DNA from: Amyelois transitella
Taxonomy: Eukaryota; Arthropoda; Insecta; Lepidoptera; Pyralidae
Direction of reading: 5' to 3'
DNA length: 64,000 nucleotides
Assembly (NCBI RefSeq): GCF_032362555.1
Contig: NC_083531.1
Coordinates: 4,712,001-4,776,000, forward strand
Position 1 is the stretch's first letter. Every line of letters begins with the position of its first letter. This document shows positions 7,201-29,400 of the stretch, one piece after another. The translations under genes and the position numbers were made by a program. Below the pieces are notes generated by a model. It was not told where the DNA came from. It did no database searches and was given only the letters and a program-made list of their open reading frames with translations.

Positions 7201-7290
7201 ATGCTGAGAATCATACAATATCTTGTTTTGGTGTCAATTCCATTTTCATTGGCAGGCGTGATAGATACATCACCGAAATGCGGTTATGAG
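7201..7290 (+). CDS. MAN2B1: Mannosidase exon 1: signal peptide
   Basis: Encodes residues 1-30 and ends in phase 0 at gtgagt. The Met is followed by a hydrophobic stretch ([16 protein letters not shown]), read as an N-terminal secretion signal, as expected for a lysosomal enzyme. The first in-frame ATG lies three bases past the acceptor at 7197. Confidence 0.85.
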
Positions 7291-10200
7291 GTGAGTAAAT
7301 ACATACACACATACATTATATTGGCCGTGTGGTTCCCGGCACCAATACAAAAAGAATAGGACCACTCCATCCCTTTCCCATGGATGTCGTAAAAGGCGGC
7401 TAAGGGATAGGCTTATAAAAGTGCGATCGTTTTTTTAGGCGATGGGCTAGCAACCTGTCACTATTTGGATCTCAATTCCATCATTAAGCCGAGCAGCTGA
7501 ACGTGGCCATTCAGTCTTTTCGGGACTGTTGGCTCTGTCTACCCCGCAAGGGATGTAGACGTGACTATATGTATGTATGTACACATACATATAATCACGC
7601 CAATATCCCTTGCGAGGCAGACAGGGCCGACAGACTTGTTAGGCCACGCTCAGCTGTTTGGCTTAATGATAGAATTGAGTTTCAAACAGTGACAGGTTGC
7701 TAGCCCGTCGTTTAAAAGAATAAGAAGAAAGAAATAAGAAGAAGAAGAATAAGAAGAAAGAAAGAATAACATCCCTTGTGTTACCTACATTTGCAATAAA
7801 TAATTTGACTTTGACTTTGAAAAGAATCCCTAGTTTATTAGCCTGTCGCTTTTACCGACATCCTAACGCGACGCCTTTATAGACGTGACTTTATGTATGT
7901 AAGTATGTACGTGTTATAAATACAACAAATTGAAATAATACGTTATCAATTGCACTTTGACATACGCTGATAACTTTTAGTGATAAGGCGTCTGTGGCAC
8001 GGCATACGCTTACCGGAGGTCCCGGGTTCGAATCCCGGCCAGAAATGAAATGAACTTTTCTTTGATCGACCTGGGTCTTGGATGTTTATACATACATACT
8101 ATATGTCGTCCACGTCTATATCCCTTGCGGGTTAGACAGAGCCAACGGTCTTGAAAAGACTGATAGATCATATTCAGCTGTTTGGCTTAATGATAGAATT
8201 GAAATTCAAATAGTGACAGATTGCTAGCCTATCGCCTTAAAGAAGAATCCTAAGTTTATTAGTCTATCCATAAGTCGCCTTTGACGATATCCATGGGAAA
8301 GAGATGGAGTGGTAATATACTTTTTTGTATTGGTGCTGGGAACCACCCGGCACAATGAATAAATATATGAACTATACTTAACAAAATAAGAATTATTCTT
8401 TATTATTTAGTAGCTGTGCCCGCGACTCCGTCCGCGTGGAATAGTTATTTTGAGCATCATTGAAGCCCTGAAAGATGAATAATTTTACTTGTTTTTTTCA
8501 CATTCTCCATTATTTCTTTGCTCCTTATAGTTGCAGCGTGATGTTATATAGCCTAAAGCCTTCCTCGATGAATGGTCTATTCAACGCAAAAAGAATTTCA
8601 ATTCGAACCACAAGTTCCTGAGATTAGCGCGTTCAAACAAACAAACTCATCAGCTTTATAATATTAGTATAGTATAGATTATAAACACGGTATGTATAAA
8701 TCTTTCAATTGTTATCTCTCTACAGAGCTGTCCGAAGACAAAAGATGGTTTTCTCAACGTACATTTAGTTGCGCACACGCATGATGACGTCGGCTGGCTG
8801 AAAACTGTCGACCAATACTATTACGGGAGTAAGTCAATAGTCTTACGAGCATACATACAAACATACATACAAACATACATACTAAAATACATACATATGG
8901 TCACGTCTATTATCCCTTGCGGGCTAGACAGAGCCAACAGTTTTGAAAAGACTGAAATACCACGGCTAGCTAGCTTACTACATACATACATATATATAGT
9001 CACGTTTATATCCTTTGCGTGGTAGACAGGGCCAACAGTCTTGAAAAGACACAGGCCACGCTCAGCTATTTGGCTTAATGATAGAATTGAGATTCAAATA
9101 GTAACAGGTTGGTAGCCCGTCGCTTAAAAAAAGAATCCCGAGTTTGTAAGCCTATCCCTTAGTCGCCTTTAACGACATCCATGGGAAAGAAAAGTACGTA
9201 CATAACTCAGAAAATAGTCATTGATTTTTTTTATTTGTTATCAATGATTTTGTTGGGTTTTTTTTTATGAGAGATATTTTTTAAAATATTGTAATGTTGT
9301 CAGGTCGTAACGGAATCCAAAAGGCTGGTGTTCAGTACATTTTGGACTCAGTCATCAAGGAACTGTGGGAGAAACCTGACCGAAGGTAGGAGTTCATGTT
9401 ATAAACCGAGGGTTATACAGGGTGACATTTAATTCAACTGCATAAATTTAACTGTTAAGTGTACCCATCTAAAGGATATTTAAAAACGTTAAAAGAAAAT
9501 TATCGGTTCATATTACAGAAAGTACGAAAAAAAATAAAAGTATCAAAATCCACGATCCTAAATACATCATATTCTTTATTAATGTGAAGTGAAAATAATG
9601 ACGTTTAATTTAAATAAAAATAGGCTCAAACGACTCAGAAGCATGTGTATAGTCTATGTTTAAAAGGATGCAGTTGTTTTAAATGTCACCCTGTATATAT
9701 ATTTTTTTTATTTAAATTTGAGTGTGTTTAATTTTCGACCTGACTGTTTTATATGTGGCGACATCTATAAGCCACAAGTGTCACAACAATAAAAAATAAA
9801 ATCACGCGACGCTATCAGTCAAAAACAGCGTAAAACCTAAATCGCGCAAGCAAAGATTTCACGGATCGGAGCATATATACAACCTCCGACACAAGATCGT
9901 GTGTCGCGCGGTTCCCCAGGCGTCACACCAGCCTACAGGGAGATCTTCCCTTTGGTGGCGGACGAGCCCCGAATCATCGCTCCCGATACATAAACGAGTA
10001 TATATAAATAGCAGCAAAAGTTGTTTTACCGGGCAAGGTGTCTTGAAAAGACTGAATGGCCACGTTCAGCTATTTGGCTTAATGATAGAATTGATATTCA
10101 AATAGTGACAAGTTGCTAGCACATCGCCTAAAAAAGAATCCCAAGTTTGTAAGCCTATCCCTTAGTCGCCTTTTACGACATCCATGGAAAAGAGATGGGA

Positions 10201-13200
10201 ATGGTCCTATTCTTTTTTGTATTAGTGCCCAGGAACCACACGGCCATTTAGGTATTTCGCTGTTTATGACTGACAGCGTCGCGTGTTTCTATTTTTTATT
10301 TTTGTGACTTATTGCGTATACAGACGGCCTCTGTGGCGCAGCGGTAGTACGCTTGTCTGTGATACCAGAGGTCCTGGGTTCGAATCCCGGCCAGGGCATG
10401 ATGAGAAAAGAACTTTTTCTGATTGGCCTGGGTCTTGGATGTTTATCTATATAAGACTTACTTCGAAGCTAACTCAATCCGTGTAATTTGTCCCGTATAT
10501 ATTTATTTATTTATTTTATACGAATAGATATCGCCACAATAGAGGTAATCACTCACTTCAATTCCAGATTTATCTACGTGGAAACCGCCTTCTTCTGGAA
10601 ATGGTGGTCAAAACAGACAGACTCCATACGTCACAAAGTCCACGCGCTGGTGAGGGAGGGACGCCTGCAATTCGTGGGCGGTGCTTGGAGTATGAACGAC
10701 GAAGCAGCCGTTCATTACCAGTCCACGATTGATCAATTCACGTGGGGATTGCGGTGAGTTGATCATCGTGATCATTATTTCAGCTGTAGGACCTGGAATG
10801 CTGGATATAGGCATCCGTCAATGACTTCTATCTGCGTTCTCTCCAACGTTTTCTTGCTTATCAAGGTATATAGCTATACAGGGTGACATTTAAAACAACT
10901 GCATCCTTTTAAACATAGACTATACCCATGCTTCTGAGCTGTTTGAGCCTATTTTTATTTAAATTAAACGTCATCATTTTCACATTTAAAAAACCCTCAA
11001 AAACTACGTCACACGCTTTATCAAAGACCAATACTACAAAAACAAATTAAAACTAAACATGTAAATAAATGTCTGAAAAATAAATTATTTTTCTAGTATC
11101 AAGATCAAGTAAAGTACAAAGTTGTCGAGATCGCTCAGCTGAATGAATTGTGTCGTTGACCTCTGAATCTTACGCGTCGCTTTTCCGCCGGCCGGGGTGA
11201 TATGACGTATTTAGGATCGTGCATTTTGATACTTTTATTTTTTTCGCACTTTCTGAAATATGAACCGATATTTTTCTTTTAACGTTTTTAAATATCTTTT
11301 AGATTAGTACACTTAACAGTTAAATTTATGCAGTTGAATTAAAAGTCACCCTGTATTATTTCATCATCATCAGCATTCGGGCAGTAGGACGTCGACTGCT
11401 GAACATAGACCTCCACCTCGCTCGTTGGAGACGACGTGCATCCAACGTTTCTTTGCTATATATCAAGGTATATAGCTATATTATTTCATCATCATCATCA
11501 GTTCAGCCGTATGACGTCAACTGCATCCAACTTCCCCCGCAGACTTCACCTGACCATCTCTCCATCTCGCTCGCAGGAACCTGTCACTATTTGAATCTCA
11601 ATTCTATCATTAAGCTAAACAGCTGTACGTGGCCTATCAGTATTATCAAGTCTGTTGGCTCTGTATATCCCGCAAGGGATATAGACGTGATGATATGTAT
11701 ACATATAATCACGTCTAGGGCCAACAGTCTTGTAAAGACTGATAGGCCACGTTCAGCTATTTGGTTTTAAGATAGAATTGAGATACAAATAGTGACAGGT
11801 TGCTAGCCCATCGCCTAAAAGAAAAATCCCAAGTTTATAAGCCTACCCCTTAGTCGCCTTTTACGACATCCATGGGAGAGAGATGGGGTGGTCCTATTCT
11901 TTTTTCTATTGGTGCCGGGAACCACACGTTGTAAAACAGTATTGTGTGCCAATAAATGAATAAATAAATAAAAATAAATATGATTTATTTATTTATGTAC
12001 ACAAAATTATATACAGGAGCATTTAATACAGTAATTCTAGTACAAAGGTGCTGCTTATTTAAAAAAAAATCTCTTCCAGTAGACCCATGAGAGGAGAGAT
12101 GTATTTTGGAGCGGTATGGCGTGTGCATAAATATACATGCTAATACTTACATAATTGATTGTTTTCATAACTCCAATATTGAAATAATTAATTTGAATGA
12201 TTGTTTTCATAGATACAATATTGAAATAATTAATTTGAATGATTGTTTTCATAGCTACAATATTGAAATAATTAATTTGAATGATTGTTTTCATAGCTAC
12301 AATATTGAAATAATTAATTTGAATGATTGTTTTCATAGCTACTACAATATTGAAATAATTAATTTGAATGATTGTTTTCATAGTTACAATATTGAAATAA
12401 TTAATTTGAATGATTGTTTTCATAGCTCCAATATTGAAATAATTAATTTGAATGATTGTTTTCATAACTCCAATATTGAAATAATTAATTTGAATGATTG
12501 TTTTCATAGCTACAATATTCAAATAATTAATTTGAATGATTGTTTTCATAGATACAATATTGAAATAATTAATTTGAATGATTGTTTTCATAGCTACAAT
12601 ATTCAAATAATTAATTTGAATGATTGTTTTCATAGATACAATATTGAAATAATTAATTTGAATGATTGTTTTCATAGCTACAATATTGAAATAATTAATT
12701 TGAATGATTGTTTTCATAGCTCCCCAATATTGAAAAAATTAATTTTTATTACAGAAAATTGAATGATACATTCGGCGTTTGCGGTGTACCGCGAGTCGGT
12801 TGGCAAATCGATCCGTTCGGTCATTCCCGGGAATTCGCTTCCCTGTTGGCGGGAATGGGCTACGATGGGCTGTTTTTGGGCAGAATCGACTACCAAGATA
12901 AGGGGAACAGGTTGAGAATGAAGAATATGGAGACGGTGTGGAGGGGAGACGATGTTTTGGGTGAGTTTTGATTAGATTTTACTTGACTAGTTCGGGCATT
13001 CCAGGGAATTAGCGTCTCTGTTGGTGGTAATGGGCTGTTTTTGGGCAGAATCGATTACCAAGATAAGGGGAACAGGTTGAGGATGAAGAATATGGAGACG
13101 GTGTGGAGGGGAGACGATGTTTTGGGTGAGTTTTGATTTTGGATATAACTTGACCGGTTCGGGCATTTCAGGAAATTTCAGTCTCTGTTGGCGGAAATGG

Positions 13201-16200
13201 GCTGTTTTTGGGCAGAATCGATTACCAAGACAAGGGGAACAGGTTGAGAATGAAGAATATGGAGACGGTGTGGAGGGGAGACGATGTTTTGGGTGAGATT
13301 TCTTTTGGATTCAACTTGACCAGCTCGGGCATTTCAGGAAATTTCAGTCTCTGTAGGCGGAAATGGGCTGTTTTTGGGCAGAATCGATTACCAAAATTAG
13401 TGGAACAGATTGAGGAAGAAGACAAAAGCAATTGGCAAACAATATGCTATAATTGTTATTATATTTATATCAATGAAATTGTGTGTCAGTACATTAAATA
13501 TTTAACCAAAAAAAATATATAAGAGTAATTAAAAAAAACCATAACAAAAAAAAATATTATGGAATTTTTTTAATAAGAAGTAATGAATATATAAATACGG
13601 GACAAATTACACAGATCGAGTTAGCCTCGAAGTAAGTTCGAGACTTGTGTTACGAGATACTAACTCGACGATACTATATTTTATAAAAAATACTTATAGA
13701 CATCCAAGACCCAGCCCGATCAGAGAAAGTTCGTTTCTCATCATGGCATAACCGGGATTCGTAGAAAAAACATATAATCATGTCTACATCCCTTCCGGGG
13801 TAGACAGAGCCAACAGTCTTCAAAAGTTTGAAGTTTGGCTTAATAATAGAATTAAGATTCAAATAGTGACAGATTGCTAGCCCACCGTCTACAAGAAGAA
13901 TCCCAAGTTTATAGGCCTTTCCCTTAGTCGCCTTTTACGACATCCATGGGAACGAAATCGAGCGGTCGTATTCTTTTCTTTTTTGATGCCGGGATCTCCA
14001 CTAAAAAAAATCTAAAATTTAATTAACATACATAATATTTCGCAAAATTATATAATATAATATATGTTTATTGCTATATCAATGAAATTTAATCATATTT
14101 ACAGGTAAATCATCGGACATATTCACCGGAGTATTGTACAACACATACTCCCCCCCGCCTGGTTTCTGCTTCGACGTTTTGTGCAATGACGAGCCGATCA
14201 TTGATGATGTCGAATCGCCGATGTACAACGTTGATAAGCGGGTGAGTCATATCATACATACATACATAAATAATAATTATAAATATATACGGGACAAATT
14301 ACACAGATCGAGTTAGCCTCGAAGTTAGTTCGAGACTTGTGTTACGAGATACTAACTCAACGATACTATATTTTATAATAAATACTTATACATGGTGACA
14401 TTTAAAACAACTGCCTCCTTTTAAACATAGACTATACCCATGCTTCTGAGCTGTTTCAGCTTATTTTTAATTAAATTAAACGTCATCATTTTCACATTTA
14501 AAAAACCCTCAAAAACTACGTCACACGCTTTATTAAAGACCAATACTACAAAAAGAAATTAAAACTAAACATGCAAATAAATGTCTGAAAAATAAATTAT
14601 TTTTCTAGTATCAAGATCAAGTAAAGTACAGAGTTGTCGAGATCGCTCAGCTGAATTAATTGTGTCGTTGACCTCTGAATCTTACGCGTCGCTTTTCCGC
14701 CGGCCGGGGTGATATGACGTATTTAGGGTCGTGGATTATATATAATATACTTTTATTTTTTTCGTACTTTCTGAAATATGAACCGATATTTTTCTTTTAA
14801 TGTTTTTAAATATCCTTTAGATGAGTACACTTAACAGTTAAATTTATGCAGTTGAATTAAAAGTCACCCTGTATAGATAAACATCCAAGACCCAGGTCAA
14901 TCAGAGAAAGTTTTTTCTCATCACGCCCTGGCCGGGATTCGAACCCGGGACCTCCGGGTGTCACAGACAAGCGCACTGCCGCTGCGCCACTGAGGCCGTC
15001 AATTAATAACTAATAAATAATAAACTAGTTGATTATTGAGAATTTATTTATTTAAATCTCACAGCTTATATTACATACATACATATATATTGTCTCTGAC
15101 ACCGGAGGTCCCAGGTTCGAATCATACATACATATAGTCACGTCTATATCCCTTGCGGGATAGACAGGGCCAACAGTCTTGAAAAGACTGATAGGCCGCG
15201 TTCAGCTGTTCGGATTGATGATAGAATTGATATTCAAATAGTGACAGGTCGCTAGCCCGTCGCCTAAAAGAAGTGTCCCGAGTATATAAGGCTATACCTT
15301 AGTCTATTAGTCAAATCATTATGATCATGAATCATTATAATCTCTTCCCTGATACATACATACATACAATTGAATTATAATTTTTTTTTATTTGAATCTT
15401 GGAAACCTATGTCATAACGTAACAATCAATCCAGCGGGTATTCAGTGATAAAAAGAAGCCTATGTAATCTTCAATTACCAAATTTCATCATTATCGGTTA
15501 TATCATAGAATGGAATAGATTTATTTTCAAAATTGGATACAAGTTATCACTAATTGACGTCACATCACTTAAATCTAATTATAACTACTGCCGCTTCCGA
15601 AGTGCGTGTGTAGAAGACGCGGCGGAACAAACTACACTGCAGTACATAAAATAACAAACATCCATACATACTTAACTAAACTTACGTATTTTGTAGGATG
15701 AAAAAAGAGGTACATACAAAGTCGGTTCAATGAGTAACCGTGTTAAGATTATTGTTATTATATATGTTTTTTTTTAGTTTTTTTTTCATAATTCCTTTTT
15801 GGGAAGTTCTAGTTTAAAAAAAATATGATTTGTCCAACTCTCCAAATTATGCCTCTGTCTCAGCGAAGACTTTCTCAAAGTTTTGCGAATTTTGTTCTTT
15901 TTTTTGTGAAAACAATTTATCAGCTGCATGTACCTATGTACTCAAAATTAAAAAAAAAAAACAAAATTTTTATTCATTACTATAGGATACTATATATCGC
16001 TTAATAATTGTCAAAACGTATGGTTTAACAACATTGGTTGACGTCAAATGAATTACTTAAAAACTAAGTTTACTGCCGCTTCCAAGGCGTCAGTGCAGAA
16101 GAAGCGGTAACAAACTGCACTGCAGCATTTTCTTCTTCTTACTCGTACTCTTTTACGTACTACGTACTCGTATGTATATGAACTTTTTAATTCCTTGTAA

Positions 16201-19200
16201 AGGTGTCAGACTTTTTGTCAATAAGTCTGAACATGTCACGAGTGTACCGCTCTCAAAATATCCTGGTCACAATGGGGGAAGACTTCCAGTATCAAGATGC
16301 GGCTATGTGGTACAAGAATTTGGACAAACTTATACAGTGAGTGATTAGTAAATGTCCGAATGTGCATGTAATTTAGGTATACTAATATTATAAAGCTGAA
16401 GAGTTTGTTTGTTTGAACGCGCTAATCTCAGGAACTATTGGTTCGAATTGAAAAATTCTTTTTGTGTTGAATAGACCATTTATCGAGGAAGGCTTTAGGC
16501 TATATAACATCACGCTGCAACTATAAGGAGCGAAGAAATAAATGGAGAATGTGAAAAAAATCGAAGAAAATTATTCATCCTTGAGGGCTTCAATGATACA
16601 TACATACATAAAATCACGCCTCTTTCCCGGAGGGGTAGGCAGAGACTACATCTTTTCACTTGCCATGATCTCTGCACACTTCGTTCGCTTCATCCACACA
16701 TTCGTAACTCTCTTTACCTTTGACCTGACCCTTTACCAGGACGTCCTTAATTTGATCAAGATACGTTCGTCTAGGTCTTCCCACCCCGACCTTTCCCTCC
16801 ACACTCTCCTTGTATATCTGCTTAGTCAACCTGCTTTCATTCATCCTCTCCACATGACCGAACCATCTCAACATACCCTTTTCTATTCCTGTAACTACAT
16901 CTTTCTTTCACATCACAATATTCCCTTATAACGCATGAGCACGTAATGGTTTAAATAAATTAATATTATCATTTAACTGCGAGGAATGATATCGGACGGT
17001 ATTGGATCTATCATTCATCATGTTCATTCATTCATTTTTAAATCATCAGTTTTACGAGTATGTACATTCATCCATATTTTTTTGTAATGTAGACAATGTG
17101 CATTCGTTCACGATTCAGAATTAATTCTAAAATACTTTATTTACGTAAATTGACGTCCGGTGAAAATGCTGCAGTGTAGTTTGTTCCGCCGCTTTTTCTA
17201 CACACGCGCTTCGGAAGCGGCAGTAGTTGTAAACTACATCAAGTGACCAATTTTGATCTAGAGGTCGTGCGTGTGACTTGATTCCCGGCACCAATAAAAA
17301 AAGAATAGGACCACTACATCTCGTTCCCATGTATGTCGTAAAAGGCGACTAAGGGATAGGATTATAAATTTGGGATTCTTTTTTTTTGTCGACAGCCCAG
17401 CAACCTGTCACTATTTAGATCTCAATTCTATCATTCAGCCAAACAGCTGAACGTGGCCCATCAGTTTTATCAAGACTGCTGGCTCTGTCTACCCCGCAAG
17501 GGATATAGACGTGACTATATGTATGTATGTATGTAAAAAGAAAAACATAAATTGTCTTAAGGTGAGCCAGTTCATCGAGGTTGCCTACAAAATGGCGGAC
17601 GCTTATCGCACGAGCAATATTCTCGTGACAATGGGTGATGATTTTCAATATCAGGACGCCGCTATGTGGTTTGTGAACTTGGAAAAGTTAATTGAGTAAG
17701 TGTATCTACATACATACATATCATCACGTCTGTATCCCTTGCGGGGTAGACGTAGCTGATAGTCTCGAAAAGACTGATAGTCCACGTTCAGCTGTTTGGC
17801 TTAGTGACAGGTCGCTAGCCCGTCGCCTTAAAGAATCTCAAGTTTATCAGCCAATCCCTTAGTCGCCTTTTACGACATCCATGGGAATGAGATGGAGTGG
17901 TCCTATTATTTTTTCTATTGGTGCCGGGAACCACACGGCACATACTATCTTTTGAGAAAATTTATTATATGTACCTACGCTTTCTTGTGTAAAATTATTT
18001 GCTCGATCATTAATTGTCGTATCTTGATCAAATTAAGGACGTCCTGGTAAAGGGTCAGCATGTCAATTCTGCTATTTTATTTTAATCCGAAACCGATCTG
18101 AAACACATTGATTACAACTTTTGGTATTCTACTAACAATTTGTCAAAACGAAGCCGTAACGCGTTGGTTCCGCAACCGAAACGGTTTGGTTGTCGTATTC
18201 TGCTAAAGGACGCGTAACCTTCCGTTTGCCGTTCGGCTATTATTTCGTATTCTGATAAGTTTTTGACAGTTGGTCCGGCCGAAACGCAACGGTTCTGCAT
18301 TGGTTGAATTGTCCAAAGTTACGGTTTTGCATCGGCAGCAAATAACCAACCGCTTCCGTTTCATTTGCGTTTCAGCTATCAACGTAAAGTTACTGGAATA
18401 CCGTTTGACAATATAAACGCAACTGTAACCAAGCTGAAACGCATCCGAACTGTTTCGGTTAATAAAAAGCAGAATTGGCCTGCAGGTCAATAGTACCCGA
18501 AACCGCCGAGTTTGCATGTAGAGAGTTATGAATCTGGATGAAGCGAAGGAAGTGTGCAGAGATCGTGGCAAGTGGAACGATGTGGTCTCTGCCTACCGTT
18601 CCGGGATAAAGGCGTGATTTTTATGTATGTTTGCATGTATTAATTGTTTGTCAAAAAGTTTTTGTTACAAAAAAAATATATAATACAGTTTCTGGAATTA
18701 CAAAATATGTACAATGGCGGATTTATCCCAATTTTTTTCCTGGATTTCTTCCAATCTTAAAATAATCCAGGTATCCAAGCGCAGATATAAAGCATTGATT
18801 TGTCTAATTGTTTTGATGTTTGAAATAACAAATCAAAAATATTTAAATACTCCGCCGTGTGGTTCCCGGCACTAAAAAATTGAACCAATCGCATCTCTTT
18901 CCCATGGATGCCGTTAAAGGCGATTAAGGGATAAGCTTCAACTTGGGTATCCCATAGATGTCATGATCCTACGGGATAGGATAAAACTAAGGATTCCACT
19001 TGGAAACGGCCCATATTTGAATCTCATTTCCATTATAAAGCCATACATCTAAACGTGGCCTGTCGGTCTTTTCAAGACTGTTGGCTCTGTCTGCCCCGCA
19101 AGGGATATAGACGTAATTATATGTATGTAAGCTTGAATACGACATGTTTTTGAGGAGCACTAAGCGGGAACTTATCTTTATTCTCTCTGGATTATATTTT

Positions 19201-22200
19201 TTTTAAAGCGGCTGAAACCGTTGGCTTAATATCATTGTAATTGGGTGGAAGGAAACCAAACAGGAGATTGGCGTTGGCGCAGAGCGAGATAAATAAATAA
19301 AACGTTATGGTTTTTTTTTTTAAGATTCCTTTGTTTTTATTTGTTTTTTTTTTAATAACTGACTAATGACAATTACAACGCTGGTCCGGAACGACTGGGT
19401 TTAGCAAGCTGACATTTGATGCGAATGTTGAAATTCAAAAATTTTATTAACTTATTATGGGACACTTCATATCACTTAATAATTGTCATATATCTTTTGG
19501 TTTCACAACATTGGTTGACGTCAAATTAATTTATTCCTTCGTTCCTTGGTTAAAATCTCAATTCTATCATCAAGACCAAAAGCTGAAATTATCGGTCTCT
19601 TCAAGACTGTAGGCTATGTCTACCCCGTAAGGGATATAGACTATATGTATGTACGAATGTATGTAATAATTAGGATCGAGAAGAAACTGGACAATTTTTT
19701 GAATTATTTAATTGTAATTTTAATTCTATTTATCACAACCATTTTACTAATCTTACCGGGTTCGAATCCCGGCCAGGGCATGATGAGAAAAGAACTTTTT
19801 CTGTTTGGCCCTGGGTCTTGGATGTTAATCTATATATAATAAGTATTTATTATAAAATATAGTAGGTATCGTTGAGTAAGCATCTCGCAACGCGAGTCTC
19901 GAACTCACTTCGAGGCTAACTCAATCTGTGTAATTTGTCCCGTATATGTATACATACATATTTATTTATTCATCACCAACTCATCATCATCACCACAATT
20001 CAGATCACCGATTTCCTGGAGTACGCGACACAACAGTCTCAATGCTATAGAACGAACAACATCGCTGTAACCATGGGGGGTGATTTTACCTATCAAGATG
20101 CGTCGATGTGGTTTGTCAACATGGATAAGTTAATTACGTGAGTTTTTCATAAGTCCACGTTATGTCTACAGACTCTGTTTGTTCGGTATATTGCCGTGTG
20201 GTTCCCGGCGGTAATACATACATAATACATACATTCATATGGTCACGTGCCGTGCCGTGTGGTTCCCGGGCACCAATAAAGAATAGGACCACTCCATCTC
20301 TTTCCCATGGATGTCGTAAAAGGCGACTAAGGGATAGGCTTACAAACTTGGGATTATTTTTTAGGCGATGAATGTCGCTATTTGAATCTCAATTCTATCA
20401 TTGAGCCAAAAAGCTGAACGTGACCATTTAGTCTTTTCAATACTGTTGGCTCTGTCTACCCCGCAAGGAATATAGACGAGACCATATGTATGTGTGTATA
20501 TGGTCACGTGGCCGTCCGTCCATTCGGTGTAGTGCCGCGTGGTTCCCGGCGCTAATACATATGGTCACGTCTATATCCCTTGCGGGGTAGACAGAGCCAA
20601 CAGTCTCAAAAAAAAAAAAAATTGGCCACGTTCAGCTGTTTGACTCAATGATAGAATTGAGATTCAAATAGTGACAGGTCGCTAGCCCATCGCCTGTAAG
20701 AAGAATCCCAAGTTTATAAGCCAATACCTTAGTCGTCTTTTACGACATCTATGAGCAAGAGATGGAGTGGTCCTATTCTTATTTTATATTGGAACCCGGA
20801 ACATATAAATATGGAATAATTAATCTTAAAAATTTTCGATTTTATATAGAAAATACTCGTAATAGCATGTTTTACACTACACTATTTCTCAGTGATTTTT
20901 GTATGCGCATGCCGTCTCCATTCACTGCTTGAGGTTTTCATTTCACATTTCACTCACTTACATACATACATATAGTCACGTCTTTATCCCTTGCGGGGTA
21001 GACAGAGCCAACAGTCTTCTCAAAAAGACGAAAAGTCCAAAAGACTGAAAGGTGTCGTTCAGCTTTTTTACTTTGTTGATAAAATTGAGATTCAAATAGT
21101 GACAGGTTGCTAGCCCATCGCATATAAGAGGAATCCAAAGTTTATAAGCCTATCCCTTAGTCGCCTCTTACGACATCCATGGGAAAGCCAAATATCTCTT
21201 TCGTGTTATCTATTGGAGAAGTCGTTTCCTTTTTTTTTTCTATCGGTGCCTGGAACCACACGGCATTTTTTTATTGCAATAATAAATTTTGGTGTAATTT
21301 CCAGACATGCCAATCTAAAAGCGGCTAAAGAAGGTCAGAACGTGACCTTGTTCTACTCGACACCGGATTGTTATCTCAAAGCTGTAAAGGACGCCAAGTG
21401 AGTATTAATCACTACATAGTATAAAACAAAGTCGCTATTTTAGTCTGTTCGTCTGTATGCTTAAATCTTTAAAATTACGCAACGGATTTCGATGCGGTTT
21501 TTTGTAACAGGTAGAGTGATTCAAGAGGAATGTTTTTATGTATAAATTTAATAGGACCCCTCCATCTCTTTCCCATGGATGTCGTAAAAGGCGACTAAGG
21601 GATAGGCTTGTAAACTTGCGATTCTTTATTTTTTAGGCGATGGGCTAGCAACCTGTCACTATTTGAACCTCAATTCTATCATTAAGCCATACAGCTGAAC
21701 GTGGCATGTCAGTCTTTTTAAGACTGTTGGCTCTGTCTACCCCGCATGGGATATAGATGTGATTATATGTATAAATAAATATATATGGGACTAATTACAC
21801 AGATTGAGTTAGCCTCGATGTAAATTCGAGACTTGTGTTACGAGATACTAACTCAACGACACTATATTTTATAATTAATACTTATATAGATAAACATCCA
21901 AGACGCAGACCAATCAGAGAAAGATTCGTTTCTCATCATGCCCTGGCCGGGATTCGAACCCGGTATCTCTTTATATTAAATTAATCACTACATAGTATAA
22001 AACAAAGTCGCTATTTTAGTCTGTTTGTCTGTATGCTTAAATCTTTAAAATTACGCAACGGATTTCGATGCGGTTTTTTGTAACAGGTAAAGTGATTCAA
22101 GAGGAAGGTTTTTATGTATAATTTTTTCCGAATTTTGCACCCGTGCGAAGCCGGGGCGGGTCGCTAGTAAATAATAATAAATAAATATATACGGGACAAA

Positions 22201-25200
22201 TTACACTGATTGAGTTAGCGTCGAAGTAAGTTCGAGACTTGTGTTACGAGATACTAACTCAACGATACTATATTTTATAATTAATACTTATATAGATAAA
22301 CATCCAAGACGCAGACCAATCAGAGAAAGTTTCGTTTCTCATCATGCCCTGGCCAGGATTCGAACCCGGGACCTCCGGTGACACAGACAAGCGTACTACC
22401 GCTGCGCCACAGAGGCCGTCAATTAATAACTAATAAAAACAAAACTAATTGATACCTACATTCCTATAATCACGTCTATATCCCTTGCGGGGTAGACAGA
22501 GCCAACAATCTTAAAAATACTGATAGGCCAGGTTCAGCTGTTTTTGACTTACTGACAGAATTGAGATTCATATAAAGTGACAGGTTGCAAGCCCGTCGCC
22601 CAAACGAAGAATCACAAGTTCAAAAGCCTTATCCCTTAGTCGCCTTTTACGACATCCACGTGAAAGAGATGGTGTGGACTGGTCCCATTCTTTTTTTATC
22701 AAAAGTTTATAAGCCTTATCCCTTAGTCGCCTTTTACCACATCCACGTGAAAGAGATGGTGTGGTCCCATTCCTTTTTTTTTTGTTATTTGTTATTATCG
22801 TAAATCAATTAAGGACGTCCTGGTAAAGGGTCAGCTCAAGAGTGCCCGAAACCGCCGAGCTTGCATGAAGAGAGTTATGAATGTGGATGAAGCGAAGGAA
22901 GTATGCAGAGATCGTGGCAAGTGGAAAGAGGTAGTCTCTGCCTACCCCTCCGGGAAAGAGGCGTGATTTTATGTATGTACGTACATAAACTTGTAATCAC
23001 GTCCATATTCCATGCGGAGTAGACAGAGCCAACAGTCTTAAAAAGACTGATAGGCCACGTTCAGAGCTGTTTGGCTTAATGATAGAATTGAGATTCAAAT
23101 AGTGACAGGTTGCTAGTCTGTCGCCTAAAAGAATCCCAAGTTTAAAAGCCTATCCCTTAGTCACCTTTTACCCCATCCATGGGAAAGAGATGGAGTGGCC
23201 CTATTTTTTGTTTCTTATGGTGCCGGGAACCACACGGCACTACATGTATGTACGTATGTATGTAAATACCCTTCCGGGGAAGAGGCGTGATTTTATATAT
23301 GTATGTATGTATGTAAATCAAATTTATTTTCAGTCCAACTTTGCCGACGAAGCAGGACGATTTCTTTCCGTATGCGAGCGATCCTAACGCGTTCTGGACG
23401 GGTTATTTCACATCGAGACCCACAACTAAATATTTCGAGAGGGAGGGCAATAATTATTTGCAGGTTTGTTTGTTTGTTTATCTAGATTTTAAACGTCTTA
23501 GTCCTTTGCGGGGCAGACGGAGGCGAAAGACTTTGAATGAAAAGGCCACGTTTTAAATTGGAATTAACCATTTTAAACACGTATAGTAATCGCTGCGTAT
23601 AATAAAATTATTAATACTCGTATTAACAGGTTATGAAAGATACAACGTCTTTGTCCCTTGCGGGGTAGACAGAGGCAGCGGACTTTGAAAAGTCTGCAAG
23701 GCCGCGCTTAATTGGATTTTATCTAAAATCACTACGAAATTATTACGTATATATAATCACGTCTGTATCCCTTGAGGGGTAGACAGAGCCAACAGTCTTG
23801 AAAAGACTGAAAGAAACTGATAGAATTGAGATAAAAAATATTATTGTTATGAAAAAGATTGTAAGCCAATCGCCTAAAAGAAGAATAGGTACCAAGTTTA
23901 TAAGCCCATCCCTTAGTAGCCTTTTACGACATCCATGTGAAAGAGATGTTGAGGTCCTATTCTTTCTTTTTTTTTGGCGCCAGGCACCACACGGCACATC
24001 TTTTTCGCACAGAATTTACAACAGTTCAAGAAATAGTACATAATTAATTATAAAAGAAATAAATCACTTGCAATGGCGGACTTTTTAAGTATTATACCAC
24101 GTTTTTTTTATTATTAAAACAGGTGGCAAAACAACTCCTAGTGTTGGCCAATTTGGAGGAACACAACATGTTTGTGCTGGACGAATTGAAAAGTGCTATG
24201 GGTGAGTGTTTCTCGGTGTTTCTCAGTGTTTCTCGTTGTTTCTCTATTAATTTATTTAACAACTAACTTATTCCGAACCTTGTGCTTCTCTTGACGTGGT
24301 GTTCTCTTTAACCGCCTTCAAATGCAAAAGTGGTTCTCAGTTTGACCTGTATGTGTGTATGTATTTGTCCGCGATTATCTCGTGTGTATATATATATATA
24401 TATTATAAGGACAGGTGGACAGTAGTAACGACAGAGTTCTATAATATCAGAGAAGAATAAAGGGGAGGAAAAGGTAGAAGGTAGAAGTCTGTTATCCAAA
24501 ATATCCTACTACTATTATAAAGGCGAAAGTTTGTACGGATGTATGGATGTTTGTTACTCTTTCACGCAAAAACTACTGAACCGAATACCATGAAATTTGG
24601 TATGTAGGTAGCTGAAGACCCAGAATAACACATAGGCTACTTTTTATCCCAGAGTTCCCGCGGGATTGATAGGGTTTCCATGCGGACGAAGTCGCGGGCG
24701 GCCTCTAGTATATTATAAGGACAGGTGGTCAGTACTAACGACAGAGTTCTATAATATCAGAGAAGAATAAAGGGGAGGAAAAGGTAGAAGGTAGAAGTCT
24801 GTTATCCAAAATATCCTACTACTATTATAAAGGCGAAAGTTTGTATGGATGTTTGTAACTCTTTCACGCAAAAACTACTGAACCGATTACCATGAAATTT
24901 GGTATGTAGGTAGCTGAAGACCCAGAATAACACATAGGCTACTTTTTATCCCGGAGTTCCCGCGGGATTGATAGGGTTTCCATGCGGACGAAGTCGCGGG
25001 CGGCCTCTAGTATATTATAAGGACAGGTGGTCAGTACTAACGACAGAGTTCTATAATATGAGAGAAGAATAAAGGGGAGGAAAAGGTAGAAGGAAGAAGT
25101 CTGTTATCCAAAATATATATTTATATTTCAGGCGTCATGCAGCATCATGACGCGGTGACAGGAACTGAGAAACAGCATGTAACGCATGATTACGAGAGAC

Positions 25201-26260
25201 TTTTGGATCAGGCTATTGAGGACTCATTGCTCATACCAAGACATGCTATCAAGTAAGTCTTTATTTTTAGAATAGAATACATATACATAGGTTTAAAGAA
25301 TTTATTCTCAAAAAAAAGATTACAAAAATCCACTTACACGAGAACAAAAGTGATAAACATACATACATACATATAATCACGTCTATATCCCTTGCGGGGT
25401 AGACAGAGCCAACAGTCTTTTAAAGACTGATAGGCCACGTTCAGCTGTTGGGCTTTAAGATAGGATTCCAAATAGTGACAGGTTGCTAGCCCATCGACTA
25501 AAAGAAGAATCCCAAGTTTATAAGCCTACTTTAGTCGCCTTTTACGACATCCATGGGAAAGAGATGGAGTGGTCCTATTCTTTTTTGTAATGGTGCCGGG
25601 AACCACACGGCACGTATATATATATATATACATATATAAATTTAAACATACATACATACATAAAATCACGCCTCTTTCCCGGAGGGGTAGGCAGAGACTA
25701 CCTCTTTCCACTTGCCACGATCTCTGCACACTTCCTTCGCTTCATCCACATTCATACCTTCGCTTCATCCACATTCATAACTCACTTCATGCAAGCTCGG
25801 CGGTTTCGGGTACTTTTGACCTGACCCTTTACCATAAATTTAAAACTGTTTTTATATTTTTTTTCACAGTAAAATAACACAAGGCGACGCCCCGTCTCCG
25901 CCCGTACTGAACATGGACCGGTGTAAATACAACGAGTCTAGTTGTATAACGTCCGAACGCGCCGACAATTTGGTGGTAAGTGCATACATACATACATACA
26001 TTTATTTATTTATTAATGGAAGTCTTACAGTCTAATTTATATGATACTAGCGACCCGCCCCGGCTTCGCACGGGTGCAAAATTATAAATGTTATTATACA
26101 TAAATACCTTCCTCTTGAATCACTCTCTACCTGTTACAAAAAACCGCATCAAAATCCGTTGCGTAATTTTAAAGATTTAAGCATACAGACAAACAGACTA
26201 AAATAGCGACTTTGTTTTATACTATGTAGTGATGGAAGTCTTACAGTCTAATTTATATGA

Positions 26261-26449: not shown

Positions 26450-29400
26450 TTATATATATAATATATAAGTATATATATAGACTAATAATAATATAATGCG
26501 ATTGCTAATTAAAAGACTTCACAAGTAGAATTGCAACCATGGAAAGATTTACACAAAAACTGCGTCATGACATATGTACATAGATAAATATGTCATAACA
26601 TACACACATACTTATATGCATACATACATACATACATAAAATCATGCCTCTTTTCCGGAGGGGTAGGCAGAGACTACATCTTTCCACTTGCCACGATCTC
26701 TGCATACTTCCTTCGCTTCATCCACATTCATAACTCTCTTCATGCAAGCTCGGCGGTTTCCGGGTACTTATATAATCACGTCTATATCCCTTGCGGGGTA
26801 GACAGAGTCAACAGTCTTGAAAAGACTGAATGGCCACGTTCAGCTGTTTGGTTTAATGAATAGAATTGATATTTAATCTTTATTTACATGATACTCGTGG
26901 AATACACGTAGTTAAATACGTACATACATACATACATATGGTCACGTCTATATCCCTTGCGGGGTAGACAGAGCCAATAAATAGTCTTGAAATGACTGAT
27001 ACGGCCACGTTCAGCTGTTTAGTTTAATGATAGAATTGATATCCAAATAGTGACAGGTTGCTAGCCCATTGCCTAAAAGAAGAATCCCAAGTTTATAAAT
27101 CCCTTACTCGCCTTTTTACGACATCCGTGGGAAATAGATGGAGTGGTACTATTCTGTTTTTTTTTCTTCTATTCATGCCGGGAACCACACGGCACTTTTA
27201 TACAATTTATTTAATAAATCTATTGTACTCTTAAATATTTTGATATTTTTTTAAAGGTAACTATATATAACCCGCTAGCTTGGGAGGTCACTGAACCCAT
27301 CAGGATACCAGTGGTCACGCGAAATAGTCAGACCTATGAGGTGTATGACCCTAATGGTAATTGTATCTTTTATTGATTTTTTTTATTTTATTAAATTTTT
27401 TTTTTTATTAGGTAACATTTCTTTTTTTTTATTTTATTAACTTTTTTTTTTTGACGGCCTCTGTGGCGCAGCGGTTGTACGCTTGTCTGTGACACCGGAG
27501 GTCGCGGGTTCGAATCCCGGCCAGGGCGTGATGAGAAAAGAACTTTTTCTGATTGACCTGGGTCTTGGATGTTTATGTATTATAAGTATTTATTATAAAA
27601 TATAGTATCGTTGAGTTAGTATCTCGTAACACAAGTTTCGAACTTACTTCGAGGCTAACTCAATCTGTGTAATTTGTCCCGTATATATTTATTATTTATT
27701 TATTTCTTGCATGTGGATATGAGGTTTGTGACCCTAATGGTAATTGTATCTTATATATTGAAATTTTTATTTCATTAACATTTCTAGCATGTATGGGTAC
27801 CTAGTTTGAAAATTAAATTTAAAATCCATGGATCCTGGATTGTGTGAGTCAGGTTTTTACACGAAGCGACTCCCGTCTGACCTCCGCGACCTTTGCAGAA
27901 GAACCTGACCCTTGATATACAGGACAAATAACACAGATTGAGTTAGCTTCGAAGCAAGTTCGAGACTTGTGTTACGAGATACTAACTCAACGACACTATA
28001 TTTTATAATAAAAACTTACATAGATAAACATCCAAGACCCAGGCCAATGAGAGAAACTTTATTCTCATCATACCCTGGCCGAGATTCGAACCCTCCGATG
28101 TTGTGACAAGCGTACTACCGCTCCGCCACAGAGGCCGTCAATTAATAACTAATAAATAATAAACTAATGGATTAATGAAAATTTATTTATTTAAATCTCA
28201 CAGCTAATATTACATTATAATGGGAAAGAACTTTTTCTGATTGGCCTGGGTCTTGGATGTTTATCTATATAAGTAGTATAAGGGGCCTCCAAATAATATA
28301 TAATTTTTCAGGTAAAATAATTCAAAGCCAATTACTGCCCATCGCTAATGCAGTCATAAACATACCGACACGAAAAAGCACAGCTAACAATGAAGTCCTA
28401 ATCATGCCGACTTTACCGCCATTAGGATACAGATCTTATTATCTAAAAAAAACCAATTCAAGATCAAAACGAAACACTAAAAAGTCAAAAGAAATAAATT
28501 ATTACAACATGAACGACTATTGGAAGAGTATTCACGAAGAAAATGTGATTGATATAAAAAATATTGATGATTCCGATGTTTTGATAGTGAAAGGTGATAT
28601 ACCCGACGCTCCAGCTAAAGATTTGGTGAGGAATGTTAATGTGGGTGTCATAGATTTTGGCGTTTTGAAAGACAGAGACAGTGTTAAAGATGTTGAGGAA
28701 TTCGAGAAGTTAGTTGAAGAGGAATTGGCTCTGAGGAAAGATGTGAAAGAAATGAGCAGAAGAGCTAAAGATGCTGTTTTTCCGAAATTGAATGATGAAG
28801 AAATGAGGATGCTTTCTGATGAGCCACAAATTGTTGAGATGGTCTCCGATAGCGTAATGCAGGTTGAGGTGAGTGTATTCACAGATATATTACATATAGC
28901 CACGTCTATAATCCTTGCGGGGTAGACAGGGCATACAGTCCGTACATCCAGTTTCTTAACGATGTTTACACTCGCCGTTAGAGAATTGGTTGGCTTCAAA
29001 TGTGTCTGAATGTTAGCCGATGTTCTCAGAAAAGTCAATGATACATATGTTAGAATTAAACAAAGCTATTGAATGAGTGCCGTGTGGATCCCGGCACCAA
29101 TTAAAAAAAGAATGTGACCACTCCGTCTCGTTCCCATGGATGTCGTTAAAGGCGACTAAAGGACAGGCTTATTAACTTGGGATTCTTCTTTTAGGCGATG
29201 GTCTAACCAACCTGTCACTATTTGAATCTCAATTCTATCATTATGCCAAGCAGCTGAACGTAGCCTATCAGTCTTTTCAAGACTGTTGGCTCTGTCTACA
29301 CCGCAGGGGATATAGACGTGTTCAATGTATGTATGTAAGCTATTGACGACAAATTTCCTTTCCAGCCCGCTCAAATATCGGTCGGCGATTCTGGTATGAC

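Follow-up and report, generated by a model that had tools for sequence, protein, structure and literature searches.

A candidate cluster of three mutually exclusive exons at the acid/base residue of a lysosomal-type alpha-mannosidase gene in Amyelois transitella

Relation to described exon clusters

Clusters of mutually exclusive exons are known from several insect genes, among them Dscam, 14-3-3zeta, Mhc and MRP (PMC6071210), and the arrangement that we describe here, a triplicated exon 7 in an alpha-mannosidase gene of the lepidopteran Amyelois transitella, is like them in consisting of tandem homologous exons of similar length that lie in the same frame and have good splice sites. The gene lies in a 64,000-nucleotide stretch of contig NC_083531.1 (positions 4,712,001 to 4,776,000; hereafter the window, in whose own coordinates all positions in the gene are given). 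The same likeness extends to the clusters of nAChR alpha6 and of the ryanodine receptor, in which tandem homologous exons are used one at a time. Unlike these insect clusters, the present one lies in the gene for a lysosomal-type glycoside hydrolase and affects an exon with a catalytic residue, and docking/selector pairing in the unique part of the introns stays within the range of shuffled sequence.

Among enzymes, pyruvate kinase M and ketohexokinase exchange one exon close to the active site, with two versions in each case. As in these enzymes, exon choice at the present locus would retune an enzyme that continues to carry out the same reaction, whereas the number of versions is three and the swapped exon bears the general acid/base residue. 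To our knowledge, it is unusual for a splicing choice to exchange the stretch that holds a catalytic residue, and one would hardly expect such a swap in a lysosomal glycosidase. The host gene shares its domains and its metal-site, nucleophile and acid/base motifs with the bovine (1O7D) and jack-bean (6B9O) enzymes, and, unlike it, two paralogues in the same genome have only one version of the exon 7 segment. The best reading of the sequence, in our view, is that of a new mutually exclusive exon cluster in an unexpected gene, situated at its catalytic exon.

No alpha-mannosidase with mutually exclusive exons was found in the open-access literature as judged by titles and the beginnings of abstracts, a scope that excludes the gene lists in the supplements of exon surveys; likewise, the gene lists of Kassiopeia, a database of predicted mutually exclusive exons, lie outside this negative. 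At that level, the statement in an earlier note on this DNA that no previous description was known still stands.

Three copies of exon 7 and the reading frame

Exon 7, which encodes residues 269-313, is present in triplicate between two constant exons, namely exon 6 on the 5' side (14105-14241, ending in phase 0) and exon 8 on the 3' side (21305-21397); these and all other exons of the gene model lie on the + strand. The three copies, 7a (16203-16336, MGEDFQYQ), 7b (17562-17695, MGDDFQYQ) and 7c (20004-20137, MGGDFTYQ), are each 134 nt long, enter in phase 0, leave in phase 2 and have an open frame. They are bounded by the splice sites ag/GTG...ca/gtgagt (7a), ag/GTG...ga/gtaagt (7b) and ag/ATC...ac/gtgagt (7c), and are separated by introns of 1,225 nt (7a to 7b) and 2,308 nt (7b to 7c).

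Single use of a, b or c gives a full-length protein of 1101 aa in all three cases, whereas the five other combinations (none, ab, ac, bc and abc) all lead to an early stop, so that single use is the sole productive outcome. Joining a to b creates CAG TGA at once, a stop follows early when either a or b is joined to c, the triple a+b+c stops at the a/b join even though its length is a multiple of three, and skipping all three copies brings in a stop at codon 276. Reconstruction of the spliced frame confirmed what the earlier note had claimed about the coordinates, the 134-nt lengths, the phases, the splice sites, the open frames and the frame-shift effects, and its numbering of the exon as residues 269-313 agrees with the full gene model. 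Its wider interpretation is partly supported, in that the sequence points to one gene with three constrained and interchangeable acid/base exons that give a full-length product only when used singly, whereas splicing of all three in vivo, a regulated choice among them and a difference in specificity, pH optimum or tissue would be further steps.

Age and selective constraint of the copies

Base identity between the copies is 0.59 (a-b), 0.52 (a-c) and 0.63 (b-c), meaning that 37-48% of bases differ, and residue identity is 0.64, 0.57 and 0.59 for the same pairs. The proportions of synonymous differences (pS) are 0.99, 1.01 and 0.73 for a-b, a-c and b-c, as against proportions of nonsynonymous differences (pN) of 0.27, 0.34 and 0.27, with synonymous sites near saturation. 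When an equal number of random base changes was simulated without constraint, none of 10,000 runs for any pair attained the observed residue identity, the highest simulated values being 0.500 (a-b), 0.409 (a-c) and 0.568 (b-c). These proportions, together with the simulations, show purifying selection on the protein.

The likeness of the copies is not a matter of chance, because tblastn between them returns E values from 9e-15 to 6e-18 and because identity is confined to the exon, where it amounts to 0.52-0.63 in register compared with 0.15-0.40 in flanking 60-nt blocks of intron. Moreover, an alignment of a, b and c with the C29 paralogue and the bovine and jack-bean enzymes, six sequences from which the degenerate C27 paralogue was left out, has 12 invariant residues, all of them thus kept by each copy. 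A tree of seven short rows, which is poorly supported and does not settle the order of duplication, assigns branches of 0.32 to a, 0.38 to b, 0.24 to c, 0.43 to the C29 paralogue and 1.39 to the degenerate C27 paralogue, so that in branch length the three copies resemble the former and not the latter. As judged from these comparisons, a, b and c are old tandem duplicates, each of which has been kept as coding sequence.

Active-site residues that differ between the versions

The catalytic Asp (equivalent to residue 319) is present in all three versions, and the residue preceding it (equivalent to 318) is Glu in a, Asp in b and Gly in c. In addition, 7c has Thr in place of Gln two residues after the catalytic Asp, and the segment preceding the acid/base motif and the W-F/Y-K/V-N segment also vary among the versions. 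An offset of 49 converts the bovine chain index to residue number, which makes the exon 7 Asp residue 319, the Ser before it 318 and the Asn of the Y-N-P-P motif 262, in accordance with the published Asn262-Ser318 pair. In the host gene the equivalent of residue 262 is Ser and falls within constant exon 6. Residue 318 is Ser in the bovine enzyme and Asp in that of jack bean, and Asp at this position is therefore not unique to Golgi enzymes.

According to PMC13204073, the Golgi pair Asp270-Asp340, represented by Asn262-Ser318 in the lysosomal enzyme, is a non-conserved dyad at which selective inhibitors are aimed, and Asp340 ionises in a way that depends on whether the acid Asp341 is protonated. 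PMC11931667 places human S318L among activity-defective mutations. These sources strengthen the interpretation in the earlier note, as the site at which Glu, Asp or Gly precedes the catalytic Asp corresponds to bovine/human Ser318, a position tied to selectivity in the former and to disease in the latter. For the further step, namely that exon choice retunes the active site, the sequence leaves our confidence at about the midpoint between belief and disbelief. Should the gene produce all three isoforms, nature would have provided an experiment on the part that residue 318 and the residues around it play in the selectivity of GH38 enzymes, a property on which inhibitors must rely if they are to act on the Golgi mannosidase while sparing the lysosomal one.

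Intron repeats and a predicted hairpin around exon 7b

A single dispersed repeat, about 260 nt long and starting CATACATA, has 94 hits in the 64-kb window (66 on the + strand and 28 on the - strand), and repeats mask 62% of the interval 14242-21304. A repeat search combined with fold prediction places two near full-length inverted copies on either side of exon 7b, at 17276-17531 (- strand) and 17707-17942 (+ strand), as the upstream and downstream arms of a predicted hairpin whose loop holds the exon together with its acceptor and donor. When 17276-17942 is folded in silico, the two arms pair over 206 base pairs (innermost 17535-17703), with -357 kcal/mol for the whole stretch.

These repeats can alternatively pair with other copies and so loop out a or c, and in the modelled pairings this resembles a set of competing structures, but one that is background-like. 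Inverted nearest-neighbour repeats occur at 5 of 17 exons (with a loop of less than 400 nt at 3 of the 17), among them constant exon 8, with a loop of 281 nt, and exon 1, with one of 365 nt. Because constant exon 8 is needed for the full-length product and has such repeats too, inverted repeats alone do not bar splicing. As to the docking/selector pairs that the earlier note would look for in the introns, repeat-derived inverted pairs are present but background-like, and pairing in unique sequence remains within the range of 30 shuffles.

The repeats beside 7b have diverged by 8.6% and 8.1% from a consensus of 30 copies. Under unconstrained drift at 8%, exon 7b remained free of stops with all 12 invariant residues in 5.6% of 5,000 simulations, which we take as weak evidence, suggestive and not decisive, that 7b was under selection after the flanking repeats had inserted.

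Favoured interpretation and alternatives

Taken together, frame and constraint make it probable, with good confidence, that this is a real mutually exclusive exon cluster and that two or more of its versions are used. In the mechanism that we propose, an old tandem duplication of exon 7 within one gene would have given rise to the three-member cluster, nonsense-mediated decay would remove skipped, double or triple messages and leave only mRNAs with a single copy, and the exon choice may be biased by cell type or stage. Each choice would leave the catalytic Asp in place and change its 318 neighbour, which would probably retune the charge in the part of the pocket next to the general acid and so shift linkage preference, leaving-group preference or pH profile while the chemistry stays the same. 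Decay of double-exon messages is one mechanism of mutual exclusion described in a research paper of 2018 (PMC6071210), where it is limited to clusters of no more than three exons with a length that is not a multiple of three; the three exons of 134 nt fall within that limit. Two other mechanisms were rejected, namely steric hindrance between adjacent exons, in view of introns of 1,225 and 2,308 nt, and U2/U12 incompatibility, in view of GTRAGT donors at all three copies. A more ambitious version would have the gene produce three lysosomal alpha-mannosidases with an acidic (Glu, Asp) or neutral (Gly) residue 318, a position at which Golgi and lysosomal enzymes part, with splicing shifting the glycan specificity or the pH range according to tissue or diet and the exon ratio in this species being set by competing inverted-repeat hairpins, one of them around b; we put this forward tentatively and consider it rather doubtful as a whole.

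Several observations weigh against the interpretation as a cluster with functionally distinct versions. In the repeat-masked, unique portion of the introns, the best stem found for docking/selector pairing scored 37.5 against maxima from 30 simple shuffles with a mean of 30.2 (standard deviation 3.0, highest 39.0), at least one of which exceeded the observed score, and this stem sits inside a single intron, that between b and c. The acceptor of 7b has a pyrimidine share of 0.47, the joint-lowest of 16 acceptors, and ends in AAG, which is otherwise seen only in 7a and exon 13. With so weak an acceptor and a position in the predicted hairpin loop, 7b may be little used, and of the three versions it is the one for which we expect the lowest use in this species. 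As residue 318 already varies among GH38 enzymes, the exchange of Glu, Asp and Gly may be near neutral. None of the three lone exons (7a, 7b and 7c) matches a Pfam model, an expected outcome for pieces only 45 aa long. Finally, scans of DNA collections confirmed no relatives, either among 3 pattern matches to exon 15 and 52 to the exon 7 alignment in the viral collection or among 13 to the exon 7 alignment in the prokaryote collection.

The weak acceptor of 7b and its enclosure in the predicted 206-pair hairpin, along with the single exon 7 copy in both paralogues examined, would also fit a gene in which one copy alone, most likely a or c, is in real use while the remaining two are relics still awaiting decay. 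We consider this unlikely, since, with synonymous divergence near saturation, a, b and c all keep an open frame, a GTRAGT donor and the 12 invariant residues, and the small share of drift simulations that left 7b intact points, without being decisive, in the same direction. Somewhat better placed, though still improbable, is the possibility that two or three versions are spliced with a loose choice among them and that the resulting isoforms are functionally interchangeable; this overlaps with the mutually exclusive cluster that we favour and differs from it solely in the retuning step. It draws on the occurrence of Ser (bovine) and Asp (jack bean) at 318, but under neutral redundancy extra copies should decay at such divergence and none has done so, and a human substitution at this very residue, S318L, is listed as activity-defective (PMC11931667).

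An artefact of assembly, through collapsed paralogues or uncollapsed haplotypes, might be suggested by the presence in the genome of at least two other genes of lysosomal type, one of which ends a few kb upstream of the window. We rejected it as highly improbable, because the copies are too different at the base level, all three are flanked by one and the same pair of constant exons, and the DNA of exon 7a has one match in the 327-Mb assembly. The assembly error that the earlier note had itself raised as a way in which its proposal might fail is thereby disfavoured, with all copies residing in one gene.

Structure and identity of the host gene

The host gene is complete within the window (7201-30547, + strand) and has 15 exons, counting exon 7 once; every intron is of the GT...AG type and the spliced frame encodes 1101 aa without a stop. 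Pieces of a rough gene model lacking exons 3 and 12-14 matched PF01074, PF09261, PF07748 and PF17677 above the curated Pfam cut-offs, corresponding to the GH38 N-terminal, middle and both C-terminal domains, and a query made of exons 6, 7a and 8 had bovine LAMAN (1O7D) as the top of 3 matched PDB sequences (E 1.7e-28). The metal-site, nucleophile and acid/base motifs were all found in the full gene model. By its domains and motifs, the gene product is a lysosomal-type alpha-mannosidase of family GH38. The roles of these residues are taken from PMC11931667 and PMC13204073, which assign the nucleophile to different Asp residues.

Upstream of the cluster, the gene model begins with exon 1 (7201-7290), which contains the start codon and a hydrophobic leader that is probably a signal peptide, and continues with exon 2 (8726-8828), holding the metal-site motif HTHDDVGW, exon 3 (9304-9385), exon 4 (10568-10753) and exon 5 (12755-12960), holding the nucleophile motif WQIDPFGHS. 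Downstream of exon 8 it comprises exon 9 (23334-23463), exon 10 (24123-24201), exon 11 (25132-25252) with the metal-site motif QHHDAVTGT, exon 12 (25870-25975), exon 13 (27257-27356), exon 14 (28312-28868) and exon 15 (29366-30547), the last of which contains the stop codon and, by Pfam, GH38 C-terminal domains. Exon 14 (28312-28868) encodes a long charged stretch, perhaps inserted in this enzyme.

Two tandem repeats are found near the nucleophile exon. The array at 12865-13422 has a 167-nt unit in 3.4 copies with 91% matches, and its unit consists of the second half of exon 5, the donor of this exon and the start of the following intron; two extra part-copies have an open frame and a third has stops, so extra donor sites may exist. 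The other, a 42-nt repeat in 13.9 copies at 12156-12745, stops 9 nt short of the start of exon 5 at 12755.

Paralogues and related genes

A query made of exons 7b and 8 gave 7 matches in the genome, 4 of them in the host gene and 3 in two paralogue loci, one on C29 near 3.5356 Mb and the other on C27 near 4.694 Mb. The C27 paralogue lies upstream of the window, the distance to the window start being about 18 kb from its exon 7 and about 6 kb from the last of its matched exons. Exon 7 is present as one copy in each paralogue (134 and 137 nt, with AG and GT at the matching places), and neither tblastn nor a profile search of the 50 kb fetched around these loci (L009-L013) found a second copy. 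Within the 64-kb window, no further or decayed copy of exon 7 was found.

In the C29 paralogue, exon 7 (L013:638-771, about 3.5356 Mb) reads MGGDFTYQ, the same core as in 7c, and this shared core could be the sign of an older state or of a functional class. The C27 tandem paralogue (L009:8128-8199, L010:1974-2183 and L010:3828-3964; about 4.688-4.694 Mb) has lost catalytic residues, with MGTRF in place of MGxDF and HTHGELGF in place of HTHDDVGW, and also reads WQSDVFGHS; its matched exons remain open, and it looks like a pseudoenzyme. An additional GH38 gene on C31, which we take to encode the Golgi enzyme from its motif LGDDFRYE, has Asp at the position where exon 7b has Asp.

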